NCBI GenBank assembly: GCA_019118645.1
Contig: DWYN01000058.1
Coordinates: forward strand, 18,392-82,391
DNA from: Candidatus Blautia excrementipullorum
GTDB taxonomy: Bacteria; Bacillota; Clostridia; Lachnospirales; Lachnospiraceae
DNA length: 64,000 bases
Direction of reading: 5' to 3'
In this document: in pieces, positions 40,490 to 46,687 of the stretch
Layout of the letters: each line of letters begins with the position of its first letter
Position numbering within the stretch: position 1 is the first letter of the stretch
The notes under the pieces: generated by a model
Seen by the model: the letters and a program-made list of their open reading frames with translations, nothing else
What the model was told of the DNA's origin: nothing
Databases searched by the model: none
Program-made: the position numbers and the translations under genes

Positions 40490-41719
40490 TTATACTGAGT
40501 ACAGATATTCTCCATTCTCCTTTACACCGTAAAAATCGGCAAAACTCAAAGAGAATATCTCTCCCTCACGTCCGGTAAGATCAATTCCGTTCTTGATCAG
40601 ATACTGATAGATACCGTCATGAGAGATGTCGCCCTGCTGAAGGAAGCCCACAAGCCGGTGATTCCGGAAAATCGCCCTTTCATACTGGTTTCTGCTCTCT
40701 TTTGCGATCACCTGATCTCCCTCCTCCGGATTCAGGGTGCCTACGCACAGAGACACCAGTCCGAAGAAATTGATAGTATTCTTCGCCGCAAACCGATCCA
40801 CATACATAAATTTATTTCCGAGAACCATATTCTGGGCAGCAATTTTCCCCTGTTTCTGAGCATTCGGCCAGATACCGGAAAGGCCGGTTACGTCTCCCGC
40901 CGCATACACATCGGAAACGCCGGTCTGCATATAATCGTTCACCTGAATTCCCCGGTCAATGGCAAGGCCGCTGTCCTCAAATCCTGCCACAGCGCTTCTC
41001 ACGCCGGCTGCCACGATCACCATATCGCACTCCAATTTTTCCCCGTTATCGAGAACCACATGGGTGATCTCGCCTTTTTCATTGGAAACCGTATCTGCTC
41101 CTCTTCGTCCCAGGCAGAAGCGGCATCCTGCTTTTTCAAAACGCTTCTGGTATTCCGCAGCCCCTCTCTCATCAAGCTGGATAGGAAGAATCCGCTCCGC
41201 CATCTCCACAATCGTAATCTTCTTTCCCTGTTCCAGAAGTCCATAGGCCGCATCGAGGCCGACAAGGCCGGAACCGATGATCACCACTTTTTCAGACTTT
41301 GCCGCTCTTTCATCAATGGCTTTGGCGTCGCTGAGATGGCGAAGCCCGAAAACATTGGGAGCATTTCTCAAATCTCCCACAGGAGGAATGAAGCTTTCCG
41401 CACCTGTGGCGATGAGAAGCTTGTCATAGTCACAGGCATATCCCTCTGTTCCATAATATACTTTTTTCGCTTTGGTATCCAGCCTAGTCACTCTCTGTCC
41501 GGCAATCTGCCAGATATGATTCTTTTCGAAAAAGTCTGCCGGGACAAAGTTCAGCCCCGCCGCATCGCGCTCATGGCTTAAATACTTATGCAGCATGCAG
41601 CGGGAATGCGGCTTTTCATCCACAGAGATCATCACGATCTCGTCCTGAGGAGCCAGCTCCCGAAGAGTTCTGGCTGCGGTCATACCCGCCGCGCCGATTC
41701 CGATAATCACATATTTCAT
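40490..41719 (-). CDS. NAD(P)/FAD-dependent oxidoreductase of the CO dehydrogenase operon
   Basis: 409 residues from the ATG at 41719 (MKYVIIGIGAAGMTAARTL); GGAGG lies 10 bases upstream, and the track extension is inside cooF. FAD-binding GxGxxG at the N-terminus, NAD(P)-binding VVIIGSGLVGLDAAYGL near residue 145, and the second FAD motif VYAAGDVTG near 275. It resembles the NADH:rubredoxin/ferredoxin reductase group. In the cooS-cooF-FNOR layout known from clostridia it passes electrons between ferredoxin and NAD(P)H. It starts 5 bases after cooF. Confidence 0.87.
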   Translation of the reverse strand: MKYVIIGIGAAGMTAARTLRELAPQDEIVMISVDEKPHSRCMLHKYLSHERDAAGLNFVPADFFEKNHIWQIAGQRVTRLDTKAKKVYYGTEGYACDYDKLLIATGAESFIPPVGDLRNAPNVFGLRHLSDAKAIDERAAKSEKVVIIGSGLVGLDAAYGLLEQGKKITIVEMAERILPIQLDERGAAEYQKRFEKAGCRFCLGRRGADTVSNEKGEITHVVLDNGEKLECDMVIVAAGVRSAVAGFEDSGLAIDRGIQVNDYMQTGVSDVYAAGDVTGLSGIWPNAQKQGKIAAQNMVLGNKFMYVDRFAAKNTINFFGLVSLCVGTLNPEEGDQVIAKESRNQYERAIFRNHRLVGFLQQGDISHDGIYQYLIKNGIDLTGREGEIFSLSFADFYGVKENGEYLYSV

Positions 41720-41724
41720 CTTCG

Positions 41725-42168
41725 TCACACCTCCTCCACATGGATGGCCTGCTTCGGACAGGCTTTCACACAGCTGGGTTCTCCGCCAAGATCTCTGCAG
41801 AAATCGCACTTGATCACAATACTGTGCGTCTCATCGTCCGGTTTCAGCACGCCGTAAGGACAGTTCATCACGCACATAAAGCAGGAGCCGCATTTCTCTT
41901 TATCGTAGTATACATGTCCGTCTTCCGGACTCTTGGTCAGTGCGCCGCTCATGCAGGCAAGCACGCACTCCGGCTCGTCGCAGTGACGGCAGAAAACCGG
42001 CTTGTATCCGTCTGCTGTTTTGTATATAAAATTGCGGCTTTCATTTGCCGGATCGTTCAGATCCAGTGTATAGATATCGCCCGTATCCTTCCGGTGGGCC
42101 TGCATGCATGCCAGGCTGCAGCTTTTGCAGCCGTCACATTTTTCCGCGTCAATGATAATTCTTTTCAT
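41725..42168 (-). CDS. cooF: CooF-type multi-[4Fe-4S] ferredoxin
   Basis: 147 residues from the second ATG (42168), which is 7 bases after GGGGG; the first ATG at 42174 is only one base from it. Four cysteine clusters are visible: CDGCKSCSLAC, CRHCDEPECVLAC, CGSCFMCVMNC and CDFCRDLGGEPSCVKAC, fitting four [4Fe-4S] clusters as in CooF/HycB-type electron carriers. It would carry electrons from the CO dehydrogenase to the flavoprotein. It lies 15 bases after cooS. Confidence 0.9.
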   Translation of the reverse strand: MKRIIIDAEKCDGCKSCSLACMQAHRKDTGDIYTLDLNDPANESRNFIYKTADGYKPVFCRHCDEPECVLACMSGALTKSPEDGHVYYDKEKCGSCFMCVMNCPYGVLKPDDETHSIVIKCDFCRDLGGEPSCVKACPKQAIHVEEV

Positions 42169-42183
42169 GGTCATGCCCCCTTA

Positions 42184-44067
42184 TCAGATATTCAGACCAG
42201 CACGTTTTTCCATAATGATCTTTTCCAGAATATCTGCGCTCTCCTTTGCGTCGCCGTTGATGATTACCTGTCCTCCGGTAAGCTGTTTCATATCCTCTGT
42301 CAGAAGCTTCACCGCAAGTTTGCTTCCTGTGACAAAAGGCGGAAGTCCCAGATGCAGCGGCAGCCCCAGAGCCAGTCCGAAGCATCCGTCTGCCAGCGCC
42401 TGCTCTTCCAGCCACTGAGCCGCGGAGAGAACCAGCGGAAGCTGAGGAAGATCCACGCCTACTTCTTTTGCAAGCTCTGTGGCCACAATTTCCAGACGTC
42501 CGATGGCCAGACATGGGCCAAAGTTCAGAACGGGCGGAATTCCCAGTTTCTCACAGACTGCACGAAGCTTCGGTCCTGCAAGCTCCGCCGCTTTGGGTTC
42601 CATCAGGCCGCAGTTTTCGATTCCTCCTGAAGAACATCCGGCTGTCAGCACAAGAATGTCTTTCGCGATCAGTTCCTTGGTAAGCTCAACGGAGAGAACG
42701 TCATGGCCTCCTGCCGTCAGGTTGGAGCATCCTACCACTCCGGCAATACCCTTGATATCTCCGGACACCAGCAGATCAATCAGCGGCTTCCAGGAATCTC
42801 CCAGGAATTTCTTGAGAGATCCTTCGCTGACACCGGTCAGAGTATCGTCGTTTCCATGTTCCGGAAACAGATTCATGGGAACGTTTCCTCTTCTCTCTTT
42901 ATAAGCTTCCACGATCTCGTCAATGATCTCCATGCTCTGCTGCTCTCTGTTTTCAAATACAAAAGGCTTCAGTTCCGCATTGGCTTTCTTTGCCACATCA
43001 TCAAGACAGATCTGTTTGATCTTAAGTTCGTCACAGATCGGCTCGATTCCCGGAAGAGTACAGTTAAACTCGGAAAGAACCGCATCGATGGCTCCTGTAG
43101 CCAGAACAGCCTCGCTTGTATAGTTGTTTCCTGCATGGCCCTCAAAAATTTCTGCATAGTGAGCGCCGCGAAGCTGCAGATCCTGGCCTACGCAGGTACA
43201 GCCTACCAGCTTGAATCCCTTGGCTCCTGCCGCTTTTGCCTTTGCCACTGCCTCTTCGCTGGTAAGTCTCTCCTGAAGGTCCACAAAAATTGTGTGCTGA
43301 TGTCCGGTGATCATAATATTGATGTAATCCGGGTCCACAACACGGAGACCTACCGGAGCCATGCGGATTTCCGGCTCTCCCAGGAGCACATCGTTGAGAA
43401 GGTTGGTAAGTGTCAGTCCGTAAAGTCCGGTGGAAATTCCAAGCTTCAGACAGTCGGTGTACATATCCACAGGATCAGAATTCAGATTGGTGGAGCATTT
43501 TACAACACCATGGAACACTTCGCCTTTTGCTCCGCCCGGAAGGATTCCAAGCTCCTTCCATCTTTCAAATCGTGGAGCATACGCCAGTTTTTCCACCAGC
43601 TCCATTTTTACATATTCCGGCTTGTACAGATCGTCCAGCACCTTCTGAGCGACCTTTTCCGCTTTTTCATATTTGTCTTCCGATTCGATGCCAAAAACCT
43701 CTGCAAGATGATTCAGTGCGTTTTCGCCCTTGATCTCGCCTTTAGTCTGAGCGGTTTTCAGTACATTGAGAGCCGTATTCTCTACAATATGTATGTAGCA
43801 TCCGGAACCGGCTGCCACTGCTCGTAAAAAGTTTCTCGCCACAATCACATCCGCTGTAGCTCCGCAGATTCCCCTAGGCGCCTTCGGCGTAATACGGCAG
43901 GGTCCGTTGGAACAGAGACGGCAGCATACACCCTGCAGGCCGAAACCGCATTTCGTACTCTGACTCTCTACTCTGTGGTGGGAAGTTTCCATCGGCAGAC
44001 CCGCGATGTAATTCTCCAGCGGTTTGTCTGCGCTCTTACATGTGGAACATCCAAAACATTCGTTCAT
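42184..44067 (-). CDS. cooS: Anaerobic Ni-Fe carbon monoxide dehydrogenase catalytic subunit homologue, with altered second-sphere residues
   Basis: 627 residues, near the normal CooS length. CooS oxidises CO to CO2 at a [Ni-4Fe-4S] C-cluster. D-cluster (C40, C48) and B-cluster (C49, C52, C57, C68) cysteines are present in KCGFGLQGVCCRLC...GICGAT. All six C-cluster ligand positions appear kept: H256 (TGHQH), C292, C336, C447 (VVGCSN), C478 and C519 (NFGPC). Compared from memory with Carboxydothermus CODH-II, the catalytic Lys563 is Gln556 (EEQA instead of HEKA), Ile567 is Asp560, and relay His96/His99 are Glu96/Ala99, while His93 is kept. An extra C-x2-C-x2-C (MNECFGCSTC) sits at the N-terminus. 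Normal CO activity is therefore uncertain. First gene of the cooS-cooF-flavoprotein operon; GGAGG precedes the ATG. Confidence 0.9.
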   Translation of the reverse strand: MNECFGCSTCKSADKPLENYIAGLPMETSHHRVESQSTKCGFGLQGVCCRLCSNGPCRITPKAPRGICGATADVIVARNFLRAVAAGSGCYIHIVENTALNVLKTAQTKGEIKGENALNHLAEVFGIESEDKYEKAEKVAQKVLDDLYKPEYVKMELVEKLAYAPRFERWKELGILPGGAKGEVFHGVVKCSTNLNSDPVDMYTDCLKLGISTGLYGLTLTNLLNDVLLGEPEIRMAPVGLRVVDPDYINIMITGHQHTIFVDLQERLTSEEAVAKAKAAGAKGFKLVGCTCVGQDLQLRGAHYAEIFEGHAGNNYTSEAVLATGAIDAVLSEFNCTLPGIEPICDELKIKQICLDDVAKKANAELKPFVFENREQQSMEIIDEIVEAYKERRGNVPMNLFPEHGNDDTLTGVSEGSLKKFLGDSWKPLIDLLVSGDIKGIAGVVGCSNLTAGGHDVLSVELTKELIAKDILVLTAGCSSGGIENCGLMEPKAAELAGPKLRAVCEKLGIPPVLNFGPCLAIGRLEIVATELAKEVGVDLPQLPLVLSAAQWLEEQALADGCFGLALGLPLHLGLPPFVTGSKLAVKLLTEDMKQLTGGQVIINGDAKESADILEKIIMEKRAGLNI

Positions 44068-44168: not shown

Positions 44169-44198
44169 ATTATATCAATTCTGGATTAAATTAGTCAA
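44169..44198 (-). promoter_or_regulatory. Promoter of the cooS operon
   Basis: -35 TTGACT (44193-44198), 18-base spacer, -10 TATAAT (44169-44174). The transcript leader of about 95 nt contains the small palindrome TATATT-GTA-AATATA (44099-44113). The rest of the 340-base gap to the next gene holds nothing I recognise. Confidence 0.55.
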
Positions 44199-44407
44199 CA
44201 TTAACTCATAAAGATTTCTTCTCGCATCCAGCATTACAATATTTATAATTTTCCTTATACATACTGTAATTCATTCGCAAAACTCCGGTCCGGCAATTGC
44301 TTTTTTCTGATCATCATGATATATTTTACATAATCCTTAACCTATCTATCTATATATGGACATACGATTCAATGTCATTGAAGCTTTGCGGAACAAAGGA
44401 GAAAGAT

Positions 44408-46687
44408 ATGATTGAAAAAAAACTGCAGAAACGGTTAAAAAAAGCTGTAATTCTGGTAGCCTGCATATGCGTGCTGTTTCTTATATGCGGCGGAGCATTC
44501 TCAGCCTATCTGAAAGACGCCAAAAATCAGCTTCTCAGAGAGCAGGGGATTCTGGAAGCAGAAGAATATAAATCCAGAATTCTAAAACAGCTTCAGGCAG
44601 ATTTTCAGACTTTGTCCTCATTATCTATATTCCTTGGCAGTGATTACAGTTTAGACCAGGATCTATTGGCAGAACGCCTGAGCCAGACACAAAAATACAA
44701 TAACTTTGTTACTATTGCCTACTATGATCAGGATCTCAAAGGGGTCATTTCCAACAAAGATAAAAACACTTTAACCAGAGCCGGTCTTTCTGAACTCTCC
44801 GCCGAAGGACAGGAAGGAATAAAAAAAGCTATGTCCGGAGAATCGTCTGTTTCAAAGTTATTTAAAAGTACAATTTCAAATAGTTATGTATTTGTATACA
44901 GTGTGCCTGTCTTTGAAGGAAATGAAATAACCGGAGCGCTTTCCGCCAGCAGTCATATTGAGATTTTTTCCGACATTCTCTCAGGCAATACAGTATTGGG
45001 CGGCGGCGGTTATATCCATCTGATCAATTCCGACGGAGATTTCCTCATCCGTTCTTCAAACACTGTTGTCAAAGAAGATGTTCCTTCTATTTTTGAAGGG
45101 CCTTACCTGTCAGAGTCATCTAAAGCCGAAGTGCAGGAAGCACTGCAAGATCAGGAAAGGATTTTTTCCAGCTTTACCTATAACGGCCAGACATATCCTT
45201 TTCTGTTGGAGCCTGTAGGACTGAATAACTGGTATTTATTCTGTGTTAATACAGGCGGAGGACTGAACAGCGGTTCCGTTCTTTCCATCCGTGTGGTCCA
45301 GATCCTGTTTGCCGCCATAGTTCTGCTTATTGTTTTTCTGATGCTCTATGGTTATCGGCTTCTGCGCAATTATAATCAGGCGCTGCTTCAGCTTGCCTAT
45401 TACGATACTCTTACCGGAGCCGAGAATATGTCACGCTTTCGGCAGAGACTTGCTGACGCCCTGAAAAGCACCCGGGGATGCATCATAGCATTCAGTATCC
45501 GTCAGTTTCCTTTCCTGACCGAAATCTTCGGTAAAGAAAAGTCGGATCAGCTCCTTTGCCAGATCAAAGAAATTGCGGAAAGGCATATAGAAACGGGAGA
45601 ATTTTTCTGCCGCGATGCAGAGGACCGCTTTTATCTCTTTTATAAAGAAACAGACACAGGCATCATACGCAGGCGTCTGGAAAATCTTATAAAAGAAATT
45701 GAAACAAACTCTTTGTTCCGCCGGACAGATTATCAGCTGGCTATCTACTGCGGCGTAACGATCTCTTCTGTCGGCAGCGATCCTCAGGAGGAGGCGGAAA
45801 GTATGCTGACACGAATCCATTTTGCCCTGGATAAAGCAAAGGGAGGCCACAGCAGTACTATCTGGTTCTTTGATACAGAACTGCACAAACAGGAAGAATT
45901 GGAAAATTATATAGAAAGCCATATGCACGGTGCACTGCAGAACGGAGAATTCAAACTGTTTTTACAGCCTAAAACAGATTTAAAAAGCGGCTCTTTATGC
46001 GGTGCAGAGGCTCTGGTACGCTGGCAGTCTAACAATGGAAGGATGATTTTCCCAAATCAGTTCATCCCCCTATTTGAAACAAACGGCTTTTGCACGAATC
46101 TGGATCTTTATATGGCAGAGCAGGCCTGCCGCCAGATCCGGTACTGGATGGACAATGGCATCGATCCTGTGCCTATTTCTGTAAATCAGTCAAAGCTTTT
46201 GTTTTTTGAAGGAGATTATGTTCAAAAAATGACGGATCTTCTAAAAAAATACCGGATTCCCGCCCAGTTTATCACCCTCGAAATTCTTGAAGGCATGGCC
46301 CTTGATAATGTAGATGAACTGAATGCCAAAATCATTCAGCTGCAGAATGAAGGGTTCCGGATCTCTCTGGACGATTTCGGAAGCGGATATTCTTCTCTGA
46401 ACATACTTGGGAATCTAAAAATCGATGAAGTAAAGCTGGACAGAGATTTCCTGATAAGCGCGGCAGATCAGAAACAAAACCGCGTAAGACTGATCATGGA
46501 AGAAATTGTCCGTCTGGCAGGACGGCTTGGCATTTCTACCCTGGCAGAGGGTGTGGAAACTCCAGAGGATGAACAGCTAATCCGGACAATCGGATGCGAT
46601 ACAGGGCAGGGCTATCTCTACAGCAGGCCGCTGAGCATTTCAGATTTCAATAAAAAATATATGGAGCACAGACTTCAGAAAGTATAA
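44408..46687 (+). CDS. Membrane-bound c-di-GMP phosphodiesterase (sensor - degenerate GGDEF - EAL)
   Basis: 759 residues from the ATG at 44408 (MIEKKLQKRLKKAV), which has AAAGGAG upstream. TM1 about 13-35, extracellular sensor (Cache-like size) to about 290, TM2 about 295-317. A GGDEF-type domain (about 330-500) has DAEDRFYLF where the GGDEF active site should be, so it cannot make c-di-GMP. The EAL domain (about 525-755) keeps EALVRW, the Asn in PISVNQS, LEILEG, LDDFGSGYSSL, the KLD lysine, AEGVET and GQGYLYSRP, so it should hydrolyse c-di-GMP in response to an outside signal. Divergent from cooS. Confidence 0.9.
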   Translation: MIEKKLQKRLKKAVILVACICVLFLICGGAFSAYLKDAKNQLLREQGILEAEEYKSRILKQLQADFQTLSSLSIFLGSDYSLDQDLLAERLSQTQKYNNFVTIAYYDQDLKGVISNKDKNTLTRAGLSELSAEGQEGIKKAMSGESSVSKLFKSTISNSYVFVYSVPVFEGNEITGALSASSHIEIFSDILSGNTVLGGGGYIHLINSDGDFLIRSSNTVVKEDVPSIFEGPYLSESSKAEVQEALQDQERIFSSFTYNGQTYPFLLEPVGLNNWYLFCVNTGGGLNSGSVLSIRVVQILFAAIVLLIVFLMLYGYRLLRNYNQALLQLAYYDTLTGAENMSRFRQRLADALKSTRGCIIAFSIRQFPFLTEIFGKEKSDQLLCQIKEIAERHIETGEFFCRDAEDRFYLFYKETDTGIIRRRLENLIKEIETNSLFRRTDYQLAIYCGVTISSVGSDPQEEAESMLTRIHFALDKAKGGHSSTIWFFDTELHKQEELENYIESHMHGALQNGEFKLFLQPKTDLKSGSLCGAEALVRWQSNNGRMIFPNQFIPLFETNGFCTNLDLYMAEQACRQIRYWMDNGIDPVPISVNQSKLLFFEGDYVQKMTDLLKKYRIPAQFITLEILEGMALDNVDELNAKIIQLQNEGFRISLDDFGSGYSSLNILGNLKIDEVKLDRDFLISAADQKQNRVRLIMEEIVRLAGRLGISTLAEGVETPEDEQLIRTIGCDTGQGYLYSRPLSISDFNKKYMEHRLQKV

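Follow-up and report, generated by a model that had tools for sequence, protein, structure and literature searches.

The window, i.e. the whole 64,000-nucleotide stretch of DNA that was analysed, comes from a Lachnospiraceae genome and carries on its minus strand a tight operon with the gene order cooS-cooF-FNOR, in which cooF begins 9 bp after cooS and FNOR begins 5 bp after cooF. The first-pass annotation had named CooF and a flavoprotein as operon partners of the CO dehydrogenase (CODH) homologue, and both genes do lie directly after cooS. The features of the operon are:

44169..44198, minus strand: promoter-like element TTGACT-N18-TATAAT, about 100 bp upstream of cooS

42184..44067, minus strand: cooS, clade C CODH catalytic subunit of 627 residues (TIGR01702, CODH-II column read-out, tree)

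41725..42174, minus strand: cooF, polyferredoxin of 149 residues (Fer4_11, 66.1 bits; cysteine count)

40490..41719, minus strand: FNOR, FAD/NAD(P)-dependent oxidoreductase of 409 residues from its ATG (Pyr_redox_2, 202.6 bits)

The cooS reading frame is real and intact, and its product scores 762.6 bits against the NCBIfam family TIGR01702 (cut-off 478) as well as matching the Prismane/CODH Pfam family. CooF has 16 cysteines in total and would be expected to hold four 4Fe-4S clusters. The top NCBIfam match of FNOR is PadH, at 239 bits, which is under the PadH cut-off of 475; its sequence has a GxGxxG motif and then IVE, a combination that by the Rossmann rule goes with NADH, and this suggests NADH as its cofactor. 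On the other side of cooS, a divergent gene (44297-46687, plus strand) encoding a GGDEF/EAL protein of the c-di-GMP phosphodiesterase type is transcribed away from it. Downstream of FNOR, the segment 37454-40282 (minus strand) encodes a 5'-deoxyadenosine-deaminase-like amidohydrolase, an FMN-dependent azoreductase-like protein and a uridine phosphorylase, none of which lies beside cooS in the relatives examined.

We read the active site of CooS from an alignment with CODH-II, using a numbering reference that is 100% identical to PDB 1su6; the MAFFT columns were solid around the ligands and the 554-560 stretch, and those blocks were free of gaps. All six C-cluster ligands are kept (His256, Cys292, Cys336, Cys447, Cys478 and Cys519, corresponding in that order to His261, Cys295, Cys333, Cys446, Cys476 and Cys526 of CODH-II) and the B/D-cluster cysteines are complete (Cys40, 48, 49, 52, 57 and 68), both in agreement with the first-pass annotation. 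The spacing C40-X7-C48-C49 is that of a type II D-cluster, i.e. Cys-(X)7-13-Cys-Cys. The other informative positions of the protein are:

44038..44058, minus strand: N-terminal C4-x2-C7-x2-C10, a group C-1 feature read from the sequence and predicted to be disordered (AlphaFold pLDDT)

43795..43797, minus strand: codon of Tyr91, aligned with the CODH-II His93 column

43429..43431, minus strand: codon of Thr213, aligned with the CODH-II Asp219 column

42400..42408, minus strand: codons of Glu554-Glu555-Gln556, aligned with the CODH-II His561-Glu562-Lys563 columns

42388..42390, minus strand: codon of Asp560, aligned with the CODH-II Ile567 column

The first-pass annotation had replaced Lys563 by Gln and Ile567 by Asp and had noted an extra N-terminal C-x2-C-x2-C, and these calls were borne out, with Gln556 and not a lysine at the CODH-II 563 position. 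It was mistaken, however, about the histidines. His93 had been taken as kept and His96/His99 as replaced by Glu/Ala, whereas the alignment gives Tyr91 for His93, Ile94 for His96, Asn97 for His99 and Leu100 for His102. The His93/Glu96/Ala99 of that reading are in the window protein's own numbering, which is two off from that of CODH-II, and the replacement of His93 was therefore missed; the changes of Asp219 to Thr213 and of His561 to Glu554 were also overlooked. An AlphaFold model of CooS has a CODH fold (pLDDT 82.7, falling below 50 over residues 1-12) with TM scores of 0.88-0.92 against PDB CODHs and CooS-V; we used the model for the fold only and drew no side-chain positions or active-site geometry from it. 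A search of the PDB for a clade C structure found none, the best sequence matches being 6t7j and 7b7q, which are ∼32-33% identical in the structure alignment.

Clade C was defined by complete C-cluster ligands together with Tyr/Gln for the acid-base His/Lys, members of group C-1 have in addition two to four cysteines in an N-terminal motif, and FNOR and CooF are associated with groups C-1 and C-2 (Inoue 2019, PMC6344411). The window CooS has the complete ligands, Tyr91/Gln556, a type II D-cluster, the N-terminal cysteines and CooF and FNOR as neighbours. Judged by its sequence, it is a member of structural group C-1, a class published in 2019, and not a one-off; nothing in the protein distinguishes it from that group, although its locus lacks the adjacent Rrf2-type regulator gene that lies directly upstream of cooS in 31 of the 78 named loci. 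The first-pass annotation was right that the acid-base residues are replaced, but its view of this as the mark of a deviant homologue that may do another reduction is not supported, the replacement being what defines the published clade. Clade C is also represented in human gut genomes, where a survey counts 179 such genes and includes FNOR among its context types (PMC11338639).

In our tree, clade C is one branch (support 100/100) that includes the window, T. kivui and C. ljungdahlii CooS, and its name rests on the published assignments of the latter two. The closest named relatives of the window CooS are from Blautia species, while the first offshoot of the branch consists of T. kivui CooS and a close relative. 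The rooting of the tree is unsure, and we therefore make no claim about the direction of each residue change. Two clade C operons (L138 and L141) were also seen on short contigs assigned by binning to the archaeon Candidatus Bathycorpusculum; in the tree L138 falls within Clostridia, reflecting either a recent transfer or a binning error.

To measure how constant the site is, we aligned 125 full-length clade C proteins (117 distinct) from family, phylum and class samples and 80 named loci; the genome samples are draws and the frequencies hold for these sets only. None of the six C-cluster ligands varies among the 125 proteins, Thr219, Glu561, Glu562, Gln563 and Asp567 (CODH-II numbering) are invariant in 125/125 rows, i.e. 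in all 117 distinct sequences, and Tyr93 is present in 124/124 proteins covering that position. The canonical clade E and F CODHs in the set have His93, Asp219, Lys563 and Ile567, and in the window CooS the canonical pair His93 and Lys563 gives way to Tyr91 and Gln556. Clade D has Tyr93, Glu561 and Asp567 in common with clade C but keeps Lys563, with Gln562, and the hybrid cluster proteins (HCPs) have Glu-Gln-Lys at 561-563; the His93 column of the HCPs was left out of the comparison, the alignment there being off by one column. As the tyrosine, Glu561 and Asp567 are common to clade D, it is Gln563 together with Tyr93 that is special to clade C. One clade C cooS of ∼80% identity (L026, G140:C7:65766-67919) has a frame of 722 residues, with extra sequence near residue 285-290.

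The operon is conserved along with the site: CooF follows cooS in 69 of the 78 named loci with enough flank, and FNOR follows in 66 of the 75 testable ones. Seven loci, mostly from Clostridium, have the Rrf2-type gene but no CooF/FNOR downstream (L099, L102, L106, L109, L112, L113 and L121). The dN/dS of the window cooS against near relatives is 0.02-0.06, a rough figure because dS is near saturation, and it indicates that purifying selection acts on the gene. These observations bear on the idea that CooS is a degenerating CODH that has lost catalysis and is kept as a relic. Both textbook acid-base residues are indeed missing, and a purified cousin (T. kivui CooS, below) has an activity 15 to 231 times under that of AcsAB. 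However, the replacement residues occur without exception in the 117 distinct sequences, the low dN/dS and the conserved operon speak for maintenance, and the clade C enzyme is the only CODH in 10 of 24 Lachnospiraceae carriers. Because of this conservation, we consider a relic very improbable.

Upstream of cooS, the TTGACTAATTT core of the promoter-like element matches once in the window, where chance would give 0, and once in the host genome. The core recurs close to cooS in Blautia-type relatives and lies ∼500-640 bases before cooS in other relatives, several of which have an Rrf2-type gene in between. Palindromes such as AAACTATACTAAAATAGTATAGTTT occupy this upstream region in some loci from thermophiles and MAGs. 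Near-perfect examples (AAACTATACTAAAATAGTATAGTTT; AGTATACTAAAATAGTATACT) are found in L046 and L120, in both ∼35 bases upstream of cooS, and in L154-L157, and these palindromes look like operators. The host encodes an Rrf2-type protein elsewhere in its genome that is 37% identical to the tested one; a link between this protein and the cooS element would be a guess.

The first-pass annotation had cited CooS-V, a clade D protein of C. hydrogenoformans (PDB 7b7q), as a deviant homologue that holds a non-Ni cluster and does not oxidise CO. CooS-V is the top structural match of our model (TM 0.92) and has Tyr93, Glu561 and Asp567 as in the window, but it is a poor model because it lacks the Cys295 ligand, which is Glu, and keeps Lys563; no CO activity has been reported for it. 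Where clade D keeps Lys563 and, in group D-1, changes Cys295 to Glu, the window CooS has Gln556 and Cys292. Its score against the HCP family is 24.6 bits, far under the cut-off of 360.8, and together with the kept Cys295 this rules out membership of the CooS-V or HCP groups.

Membership aside, CooS might still be a stress or redox enzyme or a sensor with a CODH-like or hybrid-like cluster that reduces NO, hydroxylamine, peroxide or O2-derived species and oxidises CO as a side activity. Glu561 is common to clade D and HCP, where the matching residue of D. vulgaris HCP (Glu494) belongs to the hybrid cluster, CooS-V is the nearest solved fold, Rrf2-family genes precede cooS in the loci noted above, and the clade C operon of C. 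ljungdahlii responds to O2 exposure according to work cited in PMC6344411. On the other hand, the hybrid cluster of CooS-V is attributed mainly to the change of Cys295 to Glu, and Cys295 is kept in every clade C protein aligned; the HCP score is very low, and T. kivui CooS oxidises CO with a micromolar Km (PMC8683389). Taken together, these points make a stress or sensor role unlikely.

T. kivui CooS has been described as the sole isolated clade C enzyme (PMC13056359). We identified it as L160 (TKV_c08080) because its genome (G707; 2,397,824 bases) has exact matches to 8/8 cooS and 2/2 acsA primers of Jain 2021 (two stretches). The protein is 54% identical to the window CooS and has the same Tyr93, Thr219, Glu561, Glu562, Gln563 and Asp567, all of the ligands and an adjacent CooF gene. 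Unlike the window protein, it branches off first within the clade, carries a histidine where the window protein has Ile at position 96, and lacks both the N-terminal cysteine motif and an FNOR in its operon. According to PMC8683389, it is a CO:viologen and CO:ferredoxin oxidoreductase (13.9 U/mg CO:MV (methyl viologen), 0.5 U/mg CO:Fd) with a Km(CO) of 5 µM, CooF1 co-purifies with it, and growth on CO is lost when cooS is deleted.

We considered two other sources of this activity. A carry-over of AcsAB was rejected because it does not explain the MV and Fd activities at once: 6.5% AcsAB would give 7.2 U/mg with ferredoxin, where 0.5 was seen. A CO-adapted mutant form of the enzyme was likewise set aside: the gene was carried on a plasmid and expression was in DSM 2030 with glucose, although the strain used as template is not given, and in an independent CO adaptation the genes of CO metabolism shared no mutations. 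Provided that the published assay holds, CO oxidation in clade C survives the loss of Lys563 and His93, and this link between the clade C site and the activity of T. kivui CooS is new. It weakens the first-pass inference of another reduction, since CO oxidation is reported for a cousin with this very site; a one-way or biased reaction is conceivable. We know of no assayed clade C protein from a gut bacterium, and at 54% identity the activity is carried over to the window CooS by inference. Bohm and Land (2026, PMC13056359) anticipate that clade C has little or no activity with CO.

Genetic data come from T. kivui and C. autoethanogenum, and they bear on the possibility that CooS runs mainly in reverse, with FNOR and CooF passing electrons from NAD(P)H to CooS and surplus reductant being disposed of by the reduction of CO2 to CO. 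The clade C CooS of C. ljungdahlii (L108) is 69% identical to the window CooS, with the same site signature and the same cooS-cooF-FNOR order, in a different host, and the mutant phenotypes are only from the sister species C. autoethanogenum, whose CooS1 is presumably the orthologue of L108. A C. autoethanogenum acsA knockout that retained cooS1 and cooS2 consumed no CO and made some (PMC4895105), which points to CO2 reduction or inactivity. A cooS1 knockout of the same species grew better on H2/CO2 (PMC4895105), and deletion of cooS in T. kivui led to more acetate from H2 + CO2. However, in CODH-II bound CO2 is stabilised by Lys563 and His93, the two residues replaced here, and a protein that has lost them would be expected to reduce CO2 less well. 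NAD(P)H is also a weak reductant for the CO2/CO couple (E0' about -520 mV) and the reverse reaction would therefore need very low CO or a lower-potential donor, and T. kivui cannot grow on CO without cooS. We regard a mainly reverse mode as quite unlikely.

The host has two further CODHs, of clade E type (L002 and L003), and acsB lies a few kb from each of them on the same contig; L002 (at C98) has CooC-type genes directly on both sides. Like CODH-II, they have the fold and all of the cluster ligands of the window CooS but full canonical sites, i.e. His93, Asp219, Lys563 and Ile567. Of the 24 Lachnospiraceae genomes that carry clade C, a set that includes the host, 14 have acetyl-CoA synthase and a canonical CODH as well and 10 have neither, their sole CODH being of clade C (G123, G145, G253, G085, G148, G214, G084, G054, G149 and G119; 95-99% complete). 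Using the host's AcsA-linked CooC as query over the 24 genomes, we obtained strong matches in 14/14 genomes with a canonical CODH, whereas 9 of the 10 clade-C-only genomes contained no CooC-like protein and gave just short P-loop-type matches of at most 36.5 bits; the tenth, G148, has a nearly full-length match of 58 bits that is 30% identical. CooC, CooJ and CooT have been reported for clades A, E and F only (Bohm and Land, PMC13056359), and the genome-wide absence of CooC goes beyond that report. Two of these findings are new: ten genomes lack acetyl-CoA synthase and have no CODH other than clade C, and nine of the ten lack a CooC-like protein. Nickel loading in these nine is left unexplained, and their existence argues against clade C as a mere helper of another CODH.

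Our preferred reading, which we hold to be somewhat more likely than not, is that the window CooS is a clade C Ni,Fe-type CODH that forms a slow CO:NAD(P)+ oxidoreductase module with CooF and FNOR. The kept ligands, the activity of T. kivui CooS with the same site, the conservation of CooF and FNOR and the CODH fold were counted in its favour; the 54% identity, the CO-producing C. autoethanogenum mutant, the missing CooC and the expectation of Bohm and Land were counted against it. By analogy with T. kivui CooS only, the window CooS would interconvert CO and CO2 at a C-cluster containing nickel, and CO would be oxidised at this Ni-Fe site. Judging by the operon, the electrons would then travel via the B- and D-clusters to CooF, a ferredoxin expected to hold four clusters, on to the flavoprotein FNOR and finally to NAD(P)+. 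In place of Lys563/Asp219 and His93, the conserved set of Tyr91, Gln556, Thr213 and the carboxylates Glu554, Glu555 and Asp560 probably holds bound water and carboxylate by hydrogen bonds and not by charge, at a cost in rate, and there is probably more negative charge near this hydrogen-bonded site. The module would work apart from acetyl-CoA synthase, and is probably a CO sink or a redox valve.

The gut Lachnospiraceae that have clade C alone and lack CooC allow a further, more speculative view. Their cluster may be loaded in some other way or be free of nickel, and Tyr/Gln/Thr with Glu-Glu-Asp may be a different catalytic solution, for CO or another small molecule, and not a weakened CODH. 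We hold this to be possible but doubtful.

His93 and Lys563 are considered key residues for CO2 binding and proton transfer in CODHs. Both are dispensed with in every clade C member checked, one of which is reported to be active, and because a purified cousin with the same site oxidises CO slowly, a mechanism without the acid-base pair is a real, testable question. Clade C lets the minimal requirements of a Ni-Fe site be tested through a natural series and not through single mutants. The clade-C-only gut genomes, with no acetyl-CoA synthase and mostly with no CooC, indicate that clade C can exceed a helper role, and they are simple hosts in which to find what that role is.
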